Assembly: GCA_022563885.1 (NCBI GenBank) | Contig: JADFMM010000013.1 | Coordinates: 1-47,490, forward strand | Direction of reading: 5' to 3' | Source of the DNA: Planctomycetota bacterium | GTDB lineage: Bacteria; Planctomycetota; Phycisphaerae; Sedimentisphaerales; Anaerobacaceae | Length of the DNA stretch: 47,490 bases | Shown here: positions 4,832 to 47,490 of the stretch, one piece after another | Position numbering within the stretch: the first letter of the stretch is position 1 | Layout of the letters: the number at the start of each line of letters is the position of its first letter | Notes under the pieces: generated by a model | What the model was told of the DNA's origin: nothing | The model's input: the letters and a program-made list of their open reading frames with translations, nothing else | The model's database searches: none | Translations under genes and position numbers: made by a program

Positions 4832-5072
4832 TGGCGTCTGCAACCAGGGCCTCGGGTGAGACAAACGCCGACACGTCGAGCCCCTCTGCCTCAGGCTTGG
4901 GCTTCGGCTTGATGATTCCCTGATCGATGAGCCAGAAACCCCCTTGTACGACCAACAGACACAAGATCAAGAGGGTCAGAAAAACGTTTTTCCACCCCCG
5001 AAATACGGCAATGGCTTCCAGAGCATCTGTCACCTCAACCATGTCCGTTGATTCACTCGAATTGTCACTCAT
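4791..5072 (-). CDS. Small single-pass membrane protein, unknown function
   Basis: The 93-residue product has an acidic N-terminus (MSDNSSESTDMVEVTDALE), one transmembrane helix (NVFLTLLILCLLVVQGGFWL) and a Lys-Pro repeat (KPKPKPE) leading into a polar tail. The ATG at 5072 is preferred over a longer frame open to 5186 because GAGGTG lies about 7 bases upstream. It sits 55 bp after the GAF-like gene and overlaps the next membrane gene, so the two membrane proteins may form a complex. No recognised domain. Confidence 0.6.
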   Translation of the reverse strand: MSDNSSESTDMVEVTDALEAIAVFRGWKNVFLTLLILCLLVVQGGFWLIDQGIIKPKPKPEAEGLDVSAFVSPEALVADANANPAYRFGSRRA

Positions 5073-5127
5073 CGCCTGACACCTCTTCATGGCACCCCAT
5101 CCCTGGATAAACGCTCTATTGTCTGAT

Positions 5128-5772
5128 TCAAGGCCCTTTATTGGAAGATAATTGTTTGAATCGCGAGAATCGCCCGGTTGCCGCAATGGCCTCGGAAAAG
5201 CCCGGACAGACGGCGTACACGTGCTGAAGATTCTCGGCCTGCAGCGAATCGGGTCCCTCTTGATGGAGAAAGATGAATCCCAGGGGACGACACCCGCAAG
5301 ACAGGGGAATGGTTGCCAAACAGTACTTTCCGGTCACGCCTGCGTTTACCTGCAACCCCAGCGCCAACAGATTCTCCAGCGAATTGATCCGGTTGGCACT
5401 GCAGATGTCTCTACACACCGACTCCTCTAGAAGGGCCTCCAATCGGCTCGACTGGGTCGCCTGTGCTTCGTAAGGGACTTCCTTGCAGCCCTCAGACCCT
5501 TGCAGAAAGAAAGACACCGATACCTGGGGGAGTTCCCCCCCTATCTGCTCGGATGCCGTGCGGAGTATCTGGGTCAAGTCCGACACCCCCAGAAGGGACC
5601 TGTAAAAAGCGCCGGCGAAACGGAGGGTCTCCAGCCGGCTGATAAAACTTCGCTGCGCGTCAACCAGATCGTGACATAGAATGTCAACTTTCTTCGCCTG
5701 TATCTTGCGTTCCCTGTTGAGTTCTCGAATCATGCGGCGCAAGCGTGCGTGCCTTTTGCTCTGGTGATGCAT
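5128..5772 (-). CDS. Coiled-coil plus GAF-like domain protein
   Basis: The 214-residue protein starts with a strongly basic helical stretch (KRHARLRRMIRELNRERKIQAKKVD), predicted to be coiled coil, continues with a HAMP/linker-like helix, and ends in about 150 residues with GAF-like spacing (RSLLGVSDLTQILRTASEQIG at its start; CLATIPLSCGCRPLGFIFLHQ, near the end). Seven cysteines in the second half are notable. No output domain is attached. The ATG at 5772 has GAGGTG at a good distance; a GTG at 5778 is an alternative. It heads a possible three-gene operon with the two membrane genes. The GAF call rests on pattern only. Confidence 0.55.
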   Translation of the reverse strand: MHHQSKRHARLRRMIRELNRERKIQAKKVDILCHDLVDAQRSFISRLETLRFAGAFYRSLLGVSDLTQILRTASEQIGGELPQVSVSFFLQGSEGCKEVPYEAQATQSSRLEALLEESVCRDICSANRINSLENLLALGLQVNAGVTGKYCLATIPLSCGCRPLGFIFLHQEGPDSLQAENLQHVYAVCPGFSEAIAATGRFSRFKQLSSNKGP

Positions 5773-11089: not shown

Positions 11090-11297
11090 GCTCCGTCTGC
11101 GACCCCACGCGCACTACACCGAAGGGTGTTATCAGTATCTTAAACGGGGATTGCCCGGCCCAAGTGACACTTCTTTTCAAAAGGGCGTAGTAAGGCATAC
11201 CTGTTGAGTGCGCTTCAGATTGTGAACACCTCCGACTCCCCTGCCCTCAGAGGCCAATTCTTCCCAAAGGATAAGCTGACACAATTTGTCAAACTTC

Positions 11298-11466
11298 GGC
11301 CTGGTTCACAAAAATGTGCATAAGGGTAGCAGTCCGTCTGGCCTGTTTTCGTGCTCAGCGAAGCGCTACTCGTCATCGTAACCGAGAGCGCCGAGAAGCC
11401 GATTACGAGTACGAGCACCAGTACGATTCCGACGTCGAGTCGTATAACCCGGAATTGAGCCAGGCC
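11298..11466 (-). mobile_element. Dispersed palindromic MITE-like element, copy A
   Basis: 169 bp bounded by 11-bp inverted repeats (GGCCTGGTTCA at 11298-11308; TGAGCCAGGCC at 11456-11466, 10 of 11 paired). Flanks CAAACTTC (11290-11297) and CAAATTTC (11467-11474) look like an 8-bp target duplication with one change. Read on the minus strand it aligns closely with copy B (24885-25047). The interior has TCGTNN-type repeats able to fold into a long hairpin. No transposase is encoded; the short open frames inside are repeats, not genes. The rest of the 11090-11649 gap holds no clear gene. Confidence 0.8.
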
Positions 11467-11522
11467 CAAATTTCTCTTCAGTGGCCATGAAAAATGTGCG
11501 TGGAAAGTGTAGAGATTTTTGA

Positions 11523-15497: not shown

Positions 15498-17648
15498 TCA
15501 AACGGCGGCTCCTACCGGGACACCCGGTGCCTGCATCGAAACAGGTTGATCGGTTGGCAGGCTAATGGTCTCAATAGGTTCCACGTCCACTCCCAACACA
15601 ATCTCATCATAGGCAATCACGGGCAACATTTTGACAGTACGTGCCAACAACTCCGAGATGTTGTATCGCAACCGGGAGTCACAGAGCAGGACCACTCGAT
15701 CCAGCCCCTGGTCCATGGCTTGCTTCCACGCAGCCGCCACCTTCTGACTCAATTCGAGCGCCATGTCGGTGGGCAACGCCAGGCTCAGTTCGCCCCCCTC
15801 CTGACGCAAAAGAGTGGTCATGTGATTCTCGAAAACCGGATCGAAGGTAATCGCCTTCACCTTCTTGTCTGCACTCAGGCACATATCGGTAATCGTGCGG
15901 GTCAGCGACTTACGCACCATTTCCGTGAGCGCGACGGCGTGCTTGGTCTTGGAACCATGCTCTGACAAGGCTTCCACGATAGTGGTCAGTTCACGGATGG
16001 GAATACCATCCTTCAGCAGGTTTTTGAGAATGCGTTGCAGCAATCCAATGGTGACGACTCCGTCGGCACCCAAGGTCTCTCCCACCAGGGAAGGTTGTTC
16101 TTTGCGGAGACGGTCCACGAGCTGTTGTACGTCTTCTCGGGTCAGCAATTCATCTGCGTGCTGCCGTAGACTCTCGGACAGATGTGTCATGAACACGGAT
16201 TCGGGATCAATCACCGTGTATCCGCTAAGCTCCGCTTCTTCTTTGTTTTCCGGCGCAATCCAGAGAGCCGGTAGACCGTAGACGGGTTCTACCGTCTCAA
16301 TCCCTTTCACCGGACTCATGACCCCGCCGGGATCCATGGCCAAAAACATGCTGGGCTCCAGACTCCCTGCGGCAATGCGTAACTCGTTGAGACGCACCTG
16401 ATAGGCATTGGCCTCCAAGTTGATGTCGTCTCGCAGTCGCACCAGAGGGATGACAAGACCTAGCTCCTGTACAAACTTGCGTCGCAAGGCTCCGATTCGC
16501 TCGAAAATGGTGTCATTCTTGCGGGGATCCACCATGCCAATCAGACCAACGCCCACATGGACCGACACTCTGTCCATATCCAAGAGGTCTTCGACGGGCT
16601 CCTTTTCTTTGGATTTGGGTTTCGCGTCTTCCGCTTGCGGGGCCTCCCTGTCGCTCTGGGCGCGTCGGGCAAACTGACTGAGTACCCCCATCCCCGCAGC
16701 CAGCATCAGGAACTGAACCATGGGCATCCCCGGTATAAACGCCATGGCAGCAACAATAATCCCCGCAGTCAACAACGGCTTGCTCGCGGTCAAAAACTGG
16801 GAAGATAGATCCTCTCCCACACTCATCTGCGAGGAGATCTTGGTGACCAGAAAACCGGAACTCACCGAGATGATCATGGAGGGGATCTGACTCACCAATC
16901 CGTCCCCAATGGAGAGGATCGAATAGGTTTGGGCCGCATCGGCAAAGCCCATGCCGTTGAAGTAGCCCATGGCGATGCCGCCGATCAGATTGATGATGGT
17001 GATGATGATCCCCGCCTTGGCGTCCCCCCGGATAAACTTGCTGGCACCATCCATCGCCCCGTAAAACTCACTTTCTTTGACGATCTTAGCGCGTCGCTCC
17101 TTGGCCTCAGCTTCCGTGACGATGCCGGCATTCAAGTCGGCATCAACGGCCATCTGTTTTCCCGGCATCGCGTCCAGCGTAAATCGAGCCGACACTTCAC
17201 TGATCCGCTCGGCACCCTTGGTGATCACAATAAACTGGATGATCACCAAAATCAGAAATATCACCAGGCCGACAACGAGGCTGCCGCCCGCCATAAACAT
17301 ACCAAAGGTATTAATAAGATCGCCTGCCTCCCCGTGCAAGAGGATGAGTCGGGTTGAGGCGACGTTCAAGGACATGCGAAAGAGGGTCACGAACAGCAGC
17401 AAGGAAGGGAACGTGGATAATTCCAAGGCCTCTTTCGTGGCGAGTGTCACAATGAGCACGGCTATAGACAAAGTGATACTGCAGGTCAGGAAAAAATCCA
17501 GTATCCAGGTGGGCAGAGGAATGATCAGGGTGGCCAGCACGACCACAATCCCTGCGGCCATGAGGGTATTGCTGTGCGTCAGAACGGGCGATCTCCGCGT
17601 GGGATCATTTAGCTCTTTCTGCTGGGTTGTTTGTTTTGAATCTGCCAT
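15498..17648 (-). CDS. flhA: Flagellar type III export gate protein FlhA
   Basis: The 716-residue protein has about eight N-terminal transmembrane helices, the FHIPEP signature RFTLDAMPGKQMAVDADLNA (near residues 155-175), and the large cytoplasmic export-platform domain ending near residue 700. Length is usual for FlhA. It forms the nonameric ring that receives export substrates and chaperones such as FlgN. The ATG at 17648 fits homologues though it lacks a clear ribosome-binding site; it follows fliN by 36 bp. flhB, fliP, fliQ and fliR are not in the window. Confidence 0.97.
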   Translation of the reverse strand: MADSKQTTQQKELNDPTRRSPVLTHSNTLMAAGIVVVLATLIIPLPTWILDFFLTCSITLSIAVLIVTLATKEALELSTFPSLLLFVTLFRMSLNVASTRLILLHGEAGDLINTFGMFMAGGSLVVGLVIFLILVIIQFIVITKGAERISEVSARFTLDAMPGKQMAVDADLNAGIVTEAEAKERRAKIVKESEFYGAMDGASKFIRGDAKAGIIITIINLIGGIAMGYFNGMGFADAAQTYSILSIGDGLVSQIPSMIISVSSGFLVTKISSQMSVGEDLSSQFLTASKPLLTAGIIVAAMAFIPGMPMVQFLMLAAGMGVLSQFARRAQSDREAPQAEDAKPKSKEKEPVEDLLDMDRVSVHVGVGLIGMVDPRKNDTIFERIGALRRKFVQELGLVIPLVRLRDDINLEANAYQVRLNELRIAAGSLEPSMFLAMDPGGVMSPVKGIETVEPVYGLPALWIAPENKEEAELSGYTVIDPESVFMTHLSESLRQHADELLTREDVQQLVDRLRKEQPSLVGETLGADGVVTIGLLQRILKNLLKDGIPIRELTTIVEALSEHGSKTKHAVALTEMVRKSLTRTITDMCLSADKKVKAITFDPVFENHMTTLLRQEGGELSLALPTDMALELSQKVAAAWKQAMDQGLDRVVLLCDSRLRYNISELLARTVKMLPVIAYDEIVLGVDVEPIETISLPTDQPVSMQAPGVPVGAAV

Positions 17649-24731: not shown

Positions 24732-24884
24732 CTTGTTCCTCCTCGTCTCTACGTGTCGCATGACTGAGTCACCTTCCGACTCGTCTCAAAAGCGAGCAAC
24801 CCGGCCGTACAATTACTTGACAGGGTTTCTCTTGCGTGCTGCAGGAGCTACCTGGGACTGGAGGAGGTACGGGACGAAGAATTG

Positions 24885-25047
24885 GGCCTGGTTCAATTCT
24901 GGGTTACACGACTCGACGTAGGAATCGCATTCGTGCTCGTAATCGGCTTCTCGGCGTTCTCGATTACGATTACCCCTTCGCTGAGCACGAGCACGAAAAC
25001 AGTTCGGACAGACTGTTACCCCTATGCACACTCTTGTGAACCAAGCC
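24885..25047 (+). mobile_element. Dispersed palindromic MITE-like element, copy B
   Basis: 163 bp with inverted ends GGCCTGGTTCA (24885-24895) and TGAACCAAGCC (25037-25047, 10 of 11 paired). It is flanked by a perfect 8-bp duplication AAGAATTG (24877-24884 and 25048-25055), the clearest sign of transposition. Interior arms TCGTGCTCGTAATCG (24931-24945) and CGATTACGA ... GAGCACGAGCACGA (24961-24996) can pair. It lies between the second sigma-54 activator and the sigma-54 promoter. The rest of the 24671-25132 gap shows no gene. Confidence 0.85.
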
Positions 25048-25132
25048 AAGAATTGGGTTCTTGAAAGAGGGCGCCCGGAAATGTGTAGGCACATGAACGC
25101 CAACGGGACCGCTGAGAGATCTTTGGTGGGGC

Positions 25133-26551
25133 CTAACCGAGAACAGCTTGGGAATCGCGGTCGGGGGCCATCGCGCCTGTTTGGACGGCAGGTCCGCCCT
25201 CTCGCTCGATGTTGTACTGTTTCACTTTGGCGTAGAGTGTCGTTCGCGTAATACCGAGCAGCGAGGCGGCCTGTGTTTTCTGCCATCCCGTCTTGTTGAG
25301 GGCACGGGCGATCAGTTCGCGCTCCGCCTTGGAGAGCGAGAAGTCCTTCGTTTCGTTGGCAAACATGCCCACTTGGCCGTGGTGTTCTTTCGCCTCGGGG
25401 TCGATCACGATACTACTGAGCCCCACCTTGTCGGTCGTTTCCAGCAAAATAGCGCGATCGATGACATTGCGAAGCTCACGCACATTTCCGGGCCAATCGT
25501 GTCTCTTCAGGGCCTCGGAGGCCAATCGGGTCAAGGATCGAATCTTGCCCTGCTTCGGGGGACAGATATCCGAATGTCTCAGAAAGTATTCCGCCAGTAG
25601 CAGAATATCGTCTCGTCTGCGCGAAGATCGTAGCGGCGCCAGCACGATGGGGCAGACGCTCAGGCGATAGTACAGGTCACGCCGAAAACGGCCGGCGTCC
25701 AGCTCCTCTTTCAGATTTCGGTTACTCGAGGCAACGATAGTCCCACGGCATTGGAGGTCTTCGACACCGCCAACCTTCCGGTAGGTCTTCTCCTGCAGGA
25801 CTCGCAAAAGCTTTGCCTGCAGGTCCTGGGGCATTTCACTGACCTCATCCAAAAAAATTGTCCCCGATCCCGCCAACTCAAAGAGCCCCGCCTTGTCATG
25901 GTCCGCCCCGGTGAAAGCCCCCTTCACATGACCGAACAACTCGCTTTCCAGCAGACCCGCGGTCAAGGCGGCACAGTTGATAGCCACAAACACTTCGTGG
26001 GGATGACGTACCTGGTGCACGGAACGAGCCGCCAGCTCCTTACCGGTGCCGGTCTCCCCGACGATCAAGATCGGGTTGCACTGGCTGTTTGCCACCAGCT
26101 TGATCATCCGCAACTCGTCGCCCATGGCCGCACTCTTACCCACGACGGGGATGGAGGCGGCAAAAGGATCCCAGAAGTACCGGCTCGTCGATGCGTCGCC
26201 TACCGGGTCATCTGTTTTGGTTAAGATTTCGTGCGCGATGCGTTTCAGTTGCTCACTATCCTCCAGGCACCGGTACACACCCATCGCGTCAAACCTATCG
26301 GACGCGCCGGTGTCCCCCACCACGACCACTGACACGGGCCGTTCGGTGTTATCGGTCCTGTTCAAAAACGCTTCGACGTGATCCGGTGTGTAAACCTCGT
26401 CAAAGACCACCAGATCCGGATCAATGGTGCCGACCAAGTCCACGGCCTCACCGAGATCGTCGGCCATAAAAATGTGCCGACTGACCTCTTGGGCCAATTG
26501 TTGCATCCGATGCTTCTTGCTAACAACCAATGTTCGCTGAAGGAGGCTCAT
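25133..26551 (-). CDS. Sigma-54-dependent activator, FleQ/FlrA-like
   Basis: The 472-residue protein has an N-terminal receiver-like fold (1-115), a sigma-54 AAA+ domain (about 135-365) and a Fis-type HTH (GWQKTQAASLLGITRTTLYA). Walker A GETGTGKE is at 165-172, GAFTGA at 211-216, Walker B TIFLDEV at 231-237. The receiver-like part keeps an Asp in VVFDEVY (D51) but lacks the acidic pocket (VVSKKH) and the conserved Lys, like FleQ. It lies between the two big flagellar operons, so it is the best candidate for the master activator. C-di-GMP binding, as in FleQ, is possible but not shown. Confidence 0.88.
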   Translation of the reverse strand: MSLLQRTLVVSKKHRMQQLAQEVSRHIFMADDLGEAVDLVGTIDPDLVVFDEVYTPDHVEAFLNRTDNTERPVSVVVVGDTGASDRFDAMGVYRCLEDSEQLKRIAHEILTKTDDPVGDASTSRYFWDPFAASIPVVGKSAAMGDELRMIKLVANSQCNPILIVGETGTGKELAARSVHQVRHPHEVFVAINCAALTAGLLESELFGHVKGAFTGADHDKAGLFELAGSGTIFLDEVSEMPQDLQAKLLRVLQEKTYRKVGGVEDLQCRGTIVASSNRNLKEELDAGRFRRDLYYRLSVCPIVLAPLRSSRRRDDILLLAEYFLRHSDICPPKQGKIRSLTRLASEALKRHDWPGNVRELRNVIDRAILLETTDKVGLSSIVIDPEAKEHHGQVGMFANETKDFSLSKAERELIARALNKTGWQKTQAASLLGITRTTLYAKVKQYNIEREGGPAVQTGAMAPDRDSQAVLG

Positions 26552-47251: not shown

Positions 47252-47295
47252 AAGACTCAAGCAATCTAAGGGCGTAGATACAATTCTGAAAAAAA

Positions 47296-47474
47296 GGCCT
47301 GGTTCATTTCCGGGTCACATTCCCGATCGTTGTCGTTGTCGTGATCGTAATCGAAACATGGGATTGGGGCAATCACGGGTATCGATTACGACAACGACAA
47401 CCGCTGCGCTGATTACGACCACGAGGAGTGGCACACGGACTGGCACCTATGCGAGAACGATTCTGAACCAGGTC
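47296..47474 (+). mobile_element. Dispersed palindromic MITE-like element, copy C
   Basis: 179 bp with ends GGCCTGGTTCA (47296-47306) and TGAACCAGGTC (47464-47474, 10 of 11 paired). Flanks GAAAAAAA and GAAGAACA agree at six of eight bases. It shares the ends and the subterminal CCGGGT and ACGGACTG...TATGC blocks with A and B, but its inner arms differ: GTTGTCGTTGTCGT (47329-47342) pairs with the 47383-47401 stretch CGATTACGACAACGACAAC. The element is non-coding. Confidence 0.75.
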
Positions 47475-47490
47475 GAAGAACAGCACACTC

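Follow-up and report, generated by a model that had tools for sequence, protein, structure and literature searches.

Short mobile elements with two-part, unequally spaced ends in a planctomycete genome and a candidate transposase family sharing these ends

Results

Three intergenic elements in the window

The window, that is the whole stretch of 47,490 nucleotides analysed here, carries a large flagellar cluster between positions 15498 and 46076 (FHIPEP export protein, hook protein FlgE, FlgK and FliD). In this flagellar region a short element, copy B, sits between a gene for a TPR protein and that of a sigma-54 activator (25133-26551), which adjoins it. Copies A and C of similar elements are likewise intergenic, between larger ORFs. 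The original prediction had placed three non-coding elements here, each with 11-bp inverted ends and flanking repeats, and a renewed reading of the sequence returned the same coordinates, ends and repeats (Table 1). In each copy the 11-bp ends correspond to GGCCTGGTTCA, one end being perfect and the other having a single mismatch. Copies A and B form one subtype and copy C another, with ends and layout in common and interiors unlike. The octamer pair flanking copy C is the weakest of the three (6/8). Over the window as a whole we counted 38 TIR-like 11-mers (≤2 mismatches) versus 17.8 ± 4.1 in shuffled sequences.

Table 1. Positions of the elements, their flanking octamers and subterminal boxes in the window, and the S23-linked repeat loci of the host genome
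Feature	Position	Strand	Remark
Copy A, 169-bp MITE, A/B subtype, opposite orientation	11298..11466	-	15-spacer end at 11298, 5-spacer end at 11466
Target duplication CAAACTTC of copy A	11290..11297	.	7/8 to CAAATTTC; single octamer at the empty site in G001
Target duplication CAAATTTC of copy A	11467..11474	.	7/8 to CAAACTTC
Subterminal box GGGTAGCA of copy A, 15-spacer end	11324..11331	+	
Subterminal box GGGTTATA of copy A, 5-spacer end	11443..11450	-	1 mismatch to GGGTNACA
Copy B, 163-bp MITE, A/B subtype	24885..25047	+	5-spacer end left, 15-spacer end right
Target duplication AAGAATTG left of copy B	24877..24884	.	8/8 to right octamer (locus L001)
Target duplication AAGAATTG right of copy B	25048..25055	.	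8/8 to left octamer (locus L001)
Subterminal box GGGTTACA of copy B	24901..24908	+	5 nt inward of left terminal repeat
Subterminal box GGGTAACA of copy B	25014..25021	-	15 nt inward of right terminal repeat
Copy C, 179-bp MITE, second subtype (TCGTTG hexamers)	47296..47474	+	5-spacer end left
Left flanking octamer GAAAAAAA of copy C	47288..47295	.	6/8 to right octamer
Right flanking octamer GAAGAACA of copy C	47475..47482	.	6/8 to left octamer
Subterminal box GGGTCACA of copy C, 5-spacer end	47312..47319	+	
Degenerate subterminal box AGGTGCCA of copy C, 15-spacer end	47441..47448	-	read from the sequence
S23 genes flanked by inverted arrays	L046-L049, L051-L053		G000 contigs C312, C12, C151, C286, C93, C31, C19

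Copy number and target duplications

The elements are not confined to the three copies on which the original prediction was built. The host genome (G000, 6.5 Mb in 470 contigs) has at least 40 B-like and at least 40 C-like places, i.e. at least 80 copies of the two main types, in addition to rarer types, a third with TCGAAA hexamers and a fourth at L044 895-1044. The exact 11-mer occurs 115 times in this genome versus 4 times for its reversed control; the corresponding figures are 79 versus 6 in G001 and 29 versus 0 in G002, with few occurrences in other relatives.

Among the fetched loci, the matching of the two flanks peaks at a length of 8, not at 5, 6, 7, 9 or 10, and the octamers match at 7-8 of 8 positions in 43 of the 86 scorable elements, compared with 0.9% of mismatched flank pairs. 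The 8-bp duplications first noted at three copies are thus borne out by the larger sample. The target octamers have an AT-rich middle. Roughly one third of the candidates match at 4/8 or less, so a sizeable share of the candidates are old, rearranged or mis-paired. At one locus (L011:1501-1862; G000 C79:7234-7595) a MITE of one subtype adjoins a MITE of another with nothing but the octamer AAATTTCG between them, which suggests that one target received insertions twice.

An empty and a shared site in a close relative

The flanks of six copies, with the element removed, were searched in two genomes of the same genus. One of these, G001, is a close relative with aligned flanks 88-97% identical, and in it the site of copy A is intact but unoccupied: a single CAAACTTC takes the place of the CAAACTTC-element-CAAATTTC of G000. 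Copy B in turn is shared with G001 at the corresponding position, where its interior is one hexamer longer. Since A is absent and B shared, some insertions appear to be younger than the species split and others older. A precise loss of copy A from G001 is less likely because one octamer would have to be restored. Two further sites in G001 were rejected as clean empty sites, L018 since the join is too diverged and L003 since another MITE-like stretch lies close by. Empty sites in sister strains had been proposed as a check on the mobility of these elements, and an exact one is present for copy A. Mobility had also been set against the same copies standing at the same sites in distant species; what we find is copy B shared with a close relative that does not have copy A. 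Together with at least 80 copies and their matching octamers, the empty site upholds the MITE-like element with 8-bp duplications that had been put forward.

The ends are bipartite and unequally spaced

Inward of the terminal repeat lies a second conserved block, GGGTNACA. One end of an element reads GGCCTGGTTCA-5 nt-GGGTNACA and the other GGCCTGGTTCA-15 nt-GGGTNACA, the two spacers differing by one helical turn. A pattern search allowing spacers of 3-26 nt placed the box nearly always at exactly 5 or 15 nt from the terminal repeat. A 5 end is paired with a 15 end in 64 of 88 element candidates, pairings that are not independent events and belong to a few interior types, three large and others rarer, while neither 5/5 nor 15/15 pairs occur (0 each); in the remaining candidates the box is degraded or shifted at one end. 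The copies descend from few founders, so that independent lineages, with the autonomous ones counted in, number closer to ten. The subterminal box, the 5/15 asymmetry and the hexamer hairpin interior described below were no part of the original prediction.

The same ends are found on a viral contig (L189; IMG/VR, IMGVR_UViG_3300037322_000390), which has its own 163-bp MITE in the stretch 4980-5158. The ends of this MITE are GGCATGGTTCA, its boxes stand at 5 and 15, and its 8-bp duplication, AAAAAGTA, is perfect. Its interior is unrelated to those of the MITEs of G000, which argues that the ends and not the interior define the mobile unit. In view of this copy, phages or other mobile DNA may be vehicles for these elements.

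Hexamer interiors and repeats at S23 genes

The interior of the elements is an inverted repeat built from short tandem hexamers. On both strands the predicted folds are better than those of shuffled sequences, with z scores of -2.7 to -4.9 for the genome copies and of -7 and -11 for the viral-contig element. Element lengths change in 6-bp steps (157, 163, 169, 175 and 181; 173, 179 and 185; 170, 176 and 182), which is consistent with hexamer slippage, and a difference of one hexamer is directly seen between the orthologous B copies of G000 and G001.

Inverted arrays of short tandem repeats, with units of 6-8 nt, also enclose 7 of the 8 S23/IVS-protein (PF05635) genes of G000 (Table 1). Their inverted scores of 13-30 compare with at most 11 in 60 random placements, and the arrangement suggests free-standing IVS-like hairpins whose loop contains the gene. 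We rejected the S23/IVS genes as cargo of the elements, the canonical end pair being present around none of the 8. The hexamer core of the MITEs (CTCGTAATCGGCTT...CGATTACGATTACCGCTTCGCTGAGCACGAG; TCGTTG/TCGTAA; TCGAAA) does occur near S23 genes without MITE ends (L050:1930-2200, L051, L053), and because this core is common to both, the MITE interiors and the S23-linked repeats may share an origin.

Transposase-bearing elements with the same ends

Elements of ~1.75 kb that bear a transposase gene and have the same end geometry are present in other planctomycetes and, in decayed form, on Acaryochloris plasmids. Following single ends in relatives led to L139, a Sedimentisphaerales contig in which a 508-aa ORF (530-2056) lies between a 5-spacer and a 15-spacer end (element 413-2165). 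More full-length copies were found in G451/G006 and G083 and partial ones in G015 and G001 (the latter only a 3′ half), while G029 has a 485-bp internally deleted derivative. In G015 the N-terminal frame of the transposase continues into amidohydrolase-like sequence (L114:875-2347; C504), by fusion, truncation or an assembly join. Relatives of the protein at ~40-55% identity are encoded on Acaryochloris plasmids and on one Burkholderia latens plasmid, annotated nearly throughout as 'hypothetical protein'; the Acaryochloris copies have 5/15 ends and the Burkholderia copy a 5 end. All autonomous copies that were read have their 5 end at the side where the protein starts, and one (L149) has a 16-nt spacer in place of 15. 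The transposase is sparsely distributed: of 392 genomes of the phylum 3 have a member, and of 89 genomes of the taxonomic family 7, one of which (G024) has a distant relative only. Protein scans of viral contigs and a search of phage records gave no relatives of the transposase.

The original prediction had looked to a transposase gene with the same ends as the partner of the elements, and a candidate now exists, full-length in relatives and truncated in G000. The truncated copy reads GGCCTGGTTCA-TTTCC-GGGTAACA followed by ~120 aa of the transposase, and its TTTCC spacer is that of the C-type MITE. Neither G000 nor G002 has an intact transposase of this family. No clean 8-bp duplication borders any autonomous copy read: 5/8 is the best match among the planctomycete copies and at one intact Acaryochloris copy (L139, L152 and L157), and the other Acaryochloris copies, further ones included, have essentially no matching octamers; several of these carry stops or insertions. 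L152 and L153 come from two genomes within one genus and agree in the left flank and not in the right one, so the flanks of these 1.7-kb repeats may be obscured by draft assembly or by recombination.

The ~500-aa protein belongs to no Pfam or NCBIfam family at cut-off. Its best match is the IS256 profile (4.6e-5), at 22.6 bits versus a curated cut-off of 150, so that the cut-off of the IS256 family is not reached. The match spans residues 183-284 of the G083 protein, including the second D and the DVFH of the motifs that stand out in the alignment: D (GxDxxSTYCYLL), D (TIADxxxxLRAGQ), DVFH and E (SLVENLNSRLRNY). From these residues the protein is a putative DDE transposase with a C/D(2)H motif. 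PF01610 (DDE_Tnp_ISL3) scores 14.4 bits, below its cut-off of 23, and gives a weak match (0.005-0.03) in one or two members. Alignment with one ISL3 transposase by hhalign gave no match and a PDB sequence search found no transposase; the structure prediction, from two sequences, had a mean pLDDT of 41, too low to be informative.

Discussion

The elements described here are MITEs, i.e. non-autonomous DNA transposons: they are short and non-coding, have terminal inverted repeats and 8-bp duplications, occur in dispersed copies, have an empty counterpart at one site and have ends matching those of an autonomous element. It is probable, in our judgement, that they are mobilised in trans by a DDE transposase of an unnamed IS family, distantly related to IS256, which would cut with an 8-bp stagger and recognise bipartite ends. 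Repeated insertion with 8-bp duplications, the precise empty site, the identical end geometry of MITEs and transposase elements and the transposase remnant in the host are directly supported. Mobilisation by this particular enzyme, end discrimination and an IS256-like chemistry are what we infer from comparing sequences.

Several observations argue for trans mobilisation by this family: the same end geometry and orientation around full-length transposase ORFs, both in planctomycetes and on Acaryochloris plasmids; the C-type MITE spacer in the truncated host copy; and the internally deleted derivative in G029 together with the independent viral-contig MITE with its perfect octamer. The relationship to IS256 is suggested by the conserved D, D, DVFH and E motifs and the weak IS256 match over that core. 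Counting against the proposal are the autonomous copies without a clean octamer, the lack of an intact transposase in G000 and G002, the 16-nt spacer of L149 and the roughly one half of MITE candidates that have no good octamer.

In the mechanism that we propose, the transposase of a full-length relative would act in trans on both bipartite ends, using one end of each spacing and cutting AT-rich targets with a stagger of 8 bp. An end would consist of the 11-bp terminal repeat (GGCNTGGTTCA) and, 5 nt or 15 nt inward, the GGGTNACA box; repeat and box may be contacted separately by two parts of the transposase, and the one-turn difference between the spacers could let the enzyme tell the ends apart. 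The interior would be a filler, a hexamer inverted repeat able to fold into a hairpin, with a length that shifts by 6 bp. In the host genome the partner would survive as a truncated copy, or intact copies may have been lost in the draft assembly.

The MITEs could instead be moved at present by a different resident transposase, an IS256-, ISL3- or other 8-bp enzyme recognising the same ends. The missing intact enzyme in G000 and the autonomous copies without clean duplications would fit such a situation. We nevertheless consider it unlikely, as the proposed family has the same two end parts and the same two spacings in several lineages, G000 carries a truncated copy of this family with a C-type left end, and the loci read showed these ends around no other transposase. 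Far less probable still is that REP/REPIN-type hairpin repeats or S23/IVS-linked palindromes have spread by another route with the octamers being incidental: the interior does resemble the repeats flanking S23 genes and does fold better than shuffled sequence, but octamers far above chance at length 8 only and a precise empty site already contradict this reading, and the viral-contig element has the same ends around an unrelated interior. A chance resemblance of unrelated intergenic sequences, to which the imperfect octamers of copy C and of many other copies might point, is refuted by copy number, octamer statistics and the empty site, and we give it practically no weight.

The kind of element is one already known. 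MITEAba12 is 113 bp long, with 9-bp duplications and with 16-bp repeats that belong to ISAba12, an IS whose transposase is named (PMC6382973). Like that pair, the elements described here are short and non-coding, have terminal inverted repeats matching those of an IS, fixed-length duplications and AT-rich targets, and are similar to the IS at the ends only (PMC6382973). Unlike it, they have two-part ends with unequal spacers, 8-bp duplications and several interiors with the same ends, and the enzyme matching these ends is in no family of Pfam or NCBIfam.

IS256 makes duplications of 8-9 bp, a length into which the 8 bp of the MITEs would fall, with 5/8 as the best match at an autonomous copy. 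The candidate transposase matches the IS256 family weakly over the catalytic core and has ends starting with GG; the putative DDE and D(2)H-type motif and the E-N-x-x-(L/I)-R context read from the alignment would agree with that family. Its score is however far under the cut-off and the protein has no Pfam transposase domain. Asymmetric bipartite ends are, to our knowledge, no recognised trait of that family. The ISL3 family likewise has 8-bp duplications and ends starting with GG, and PF01610 matches weakly, yet below its cut-off, while hhalign with an ISL3 transposase was empty. REPINs also are abundant short intergenic repeats with hairpin potential; they rely on Y1 HUH enzymes and are not known to make target duplications, in contrast to the 8-bp duplications seen here.

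In how they may work, the ends recall the RAG/Transib signals with their 12/23 rule, where each end has two conserved blocks, the spacers differ by about one helical turn and opposite kinds are paired. The comparison is limited to these three features; sequences, spacer lengths, duplication length and proteins all differ, and the pairing described here is one seen in counts of ends. More tentatively, the unnamed bacterial transposase family might have a strict 5/15 pairing rule, functionally 12/23-like and kept across planctomycetes, cyanobacteria and a viral contig; we regard this as possible rather than probable.

A literature search combining MITE, Planctomycetes, transposase and target site duplication found nothing, and among the matches listed for papers printing the 11-mers none was, by title, about transposons. 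Judged against Pfam, NCBIfam and this literature, neither ends with such unequal spacing nor the transposase family appears to have been described; ISfinder may have a name for the family.

By this analysis an abundant orphan repeat is tied to a family of transposases that escapes current profile libraries, so that carrier genomes are left with 'hypothetical proteins' and with repeats that lack an explanation. With their conserved two-part build and unequal spacing, the ends would make a simple, testable case of how a bacterial DDE transposase could tell its ends apart through helical phase.
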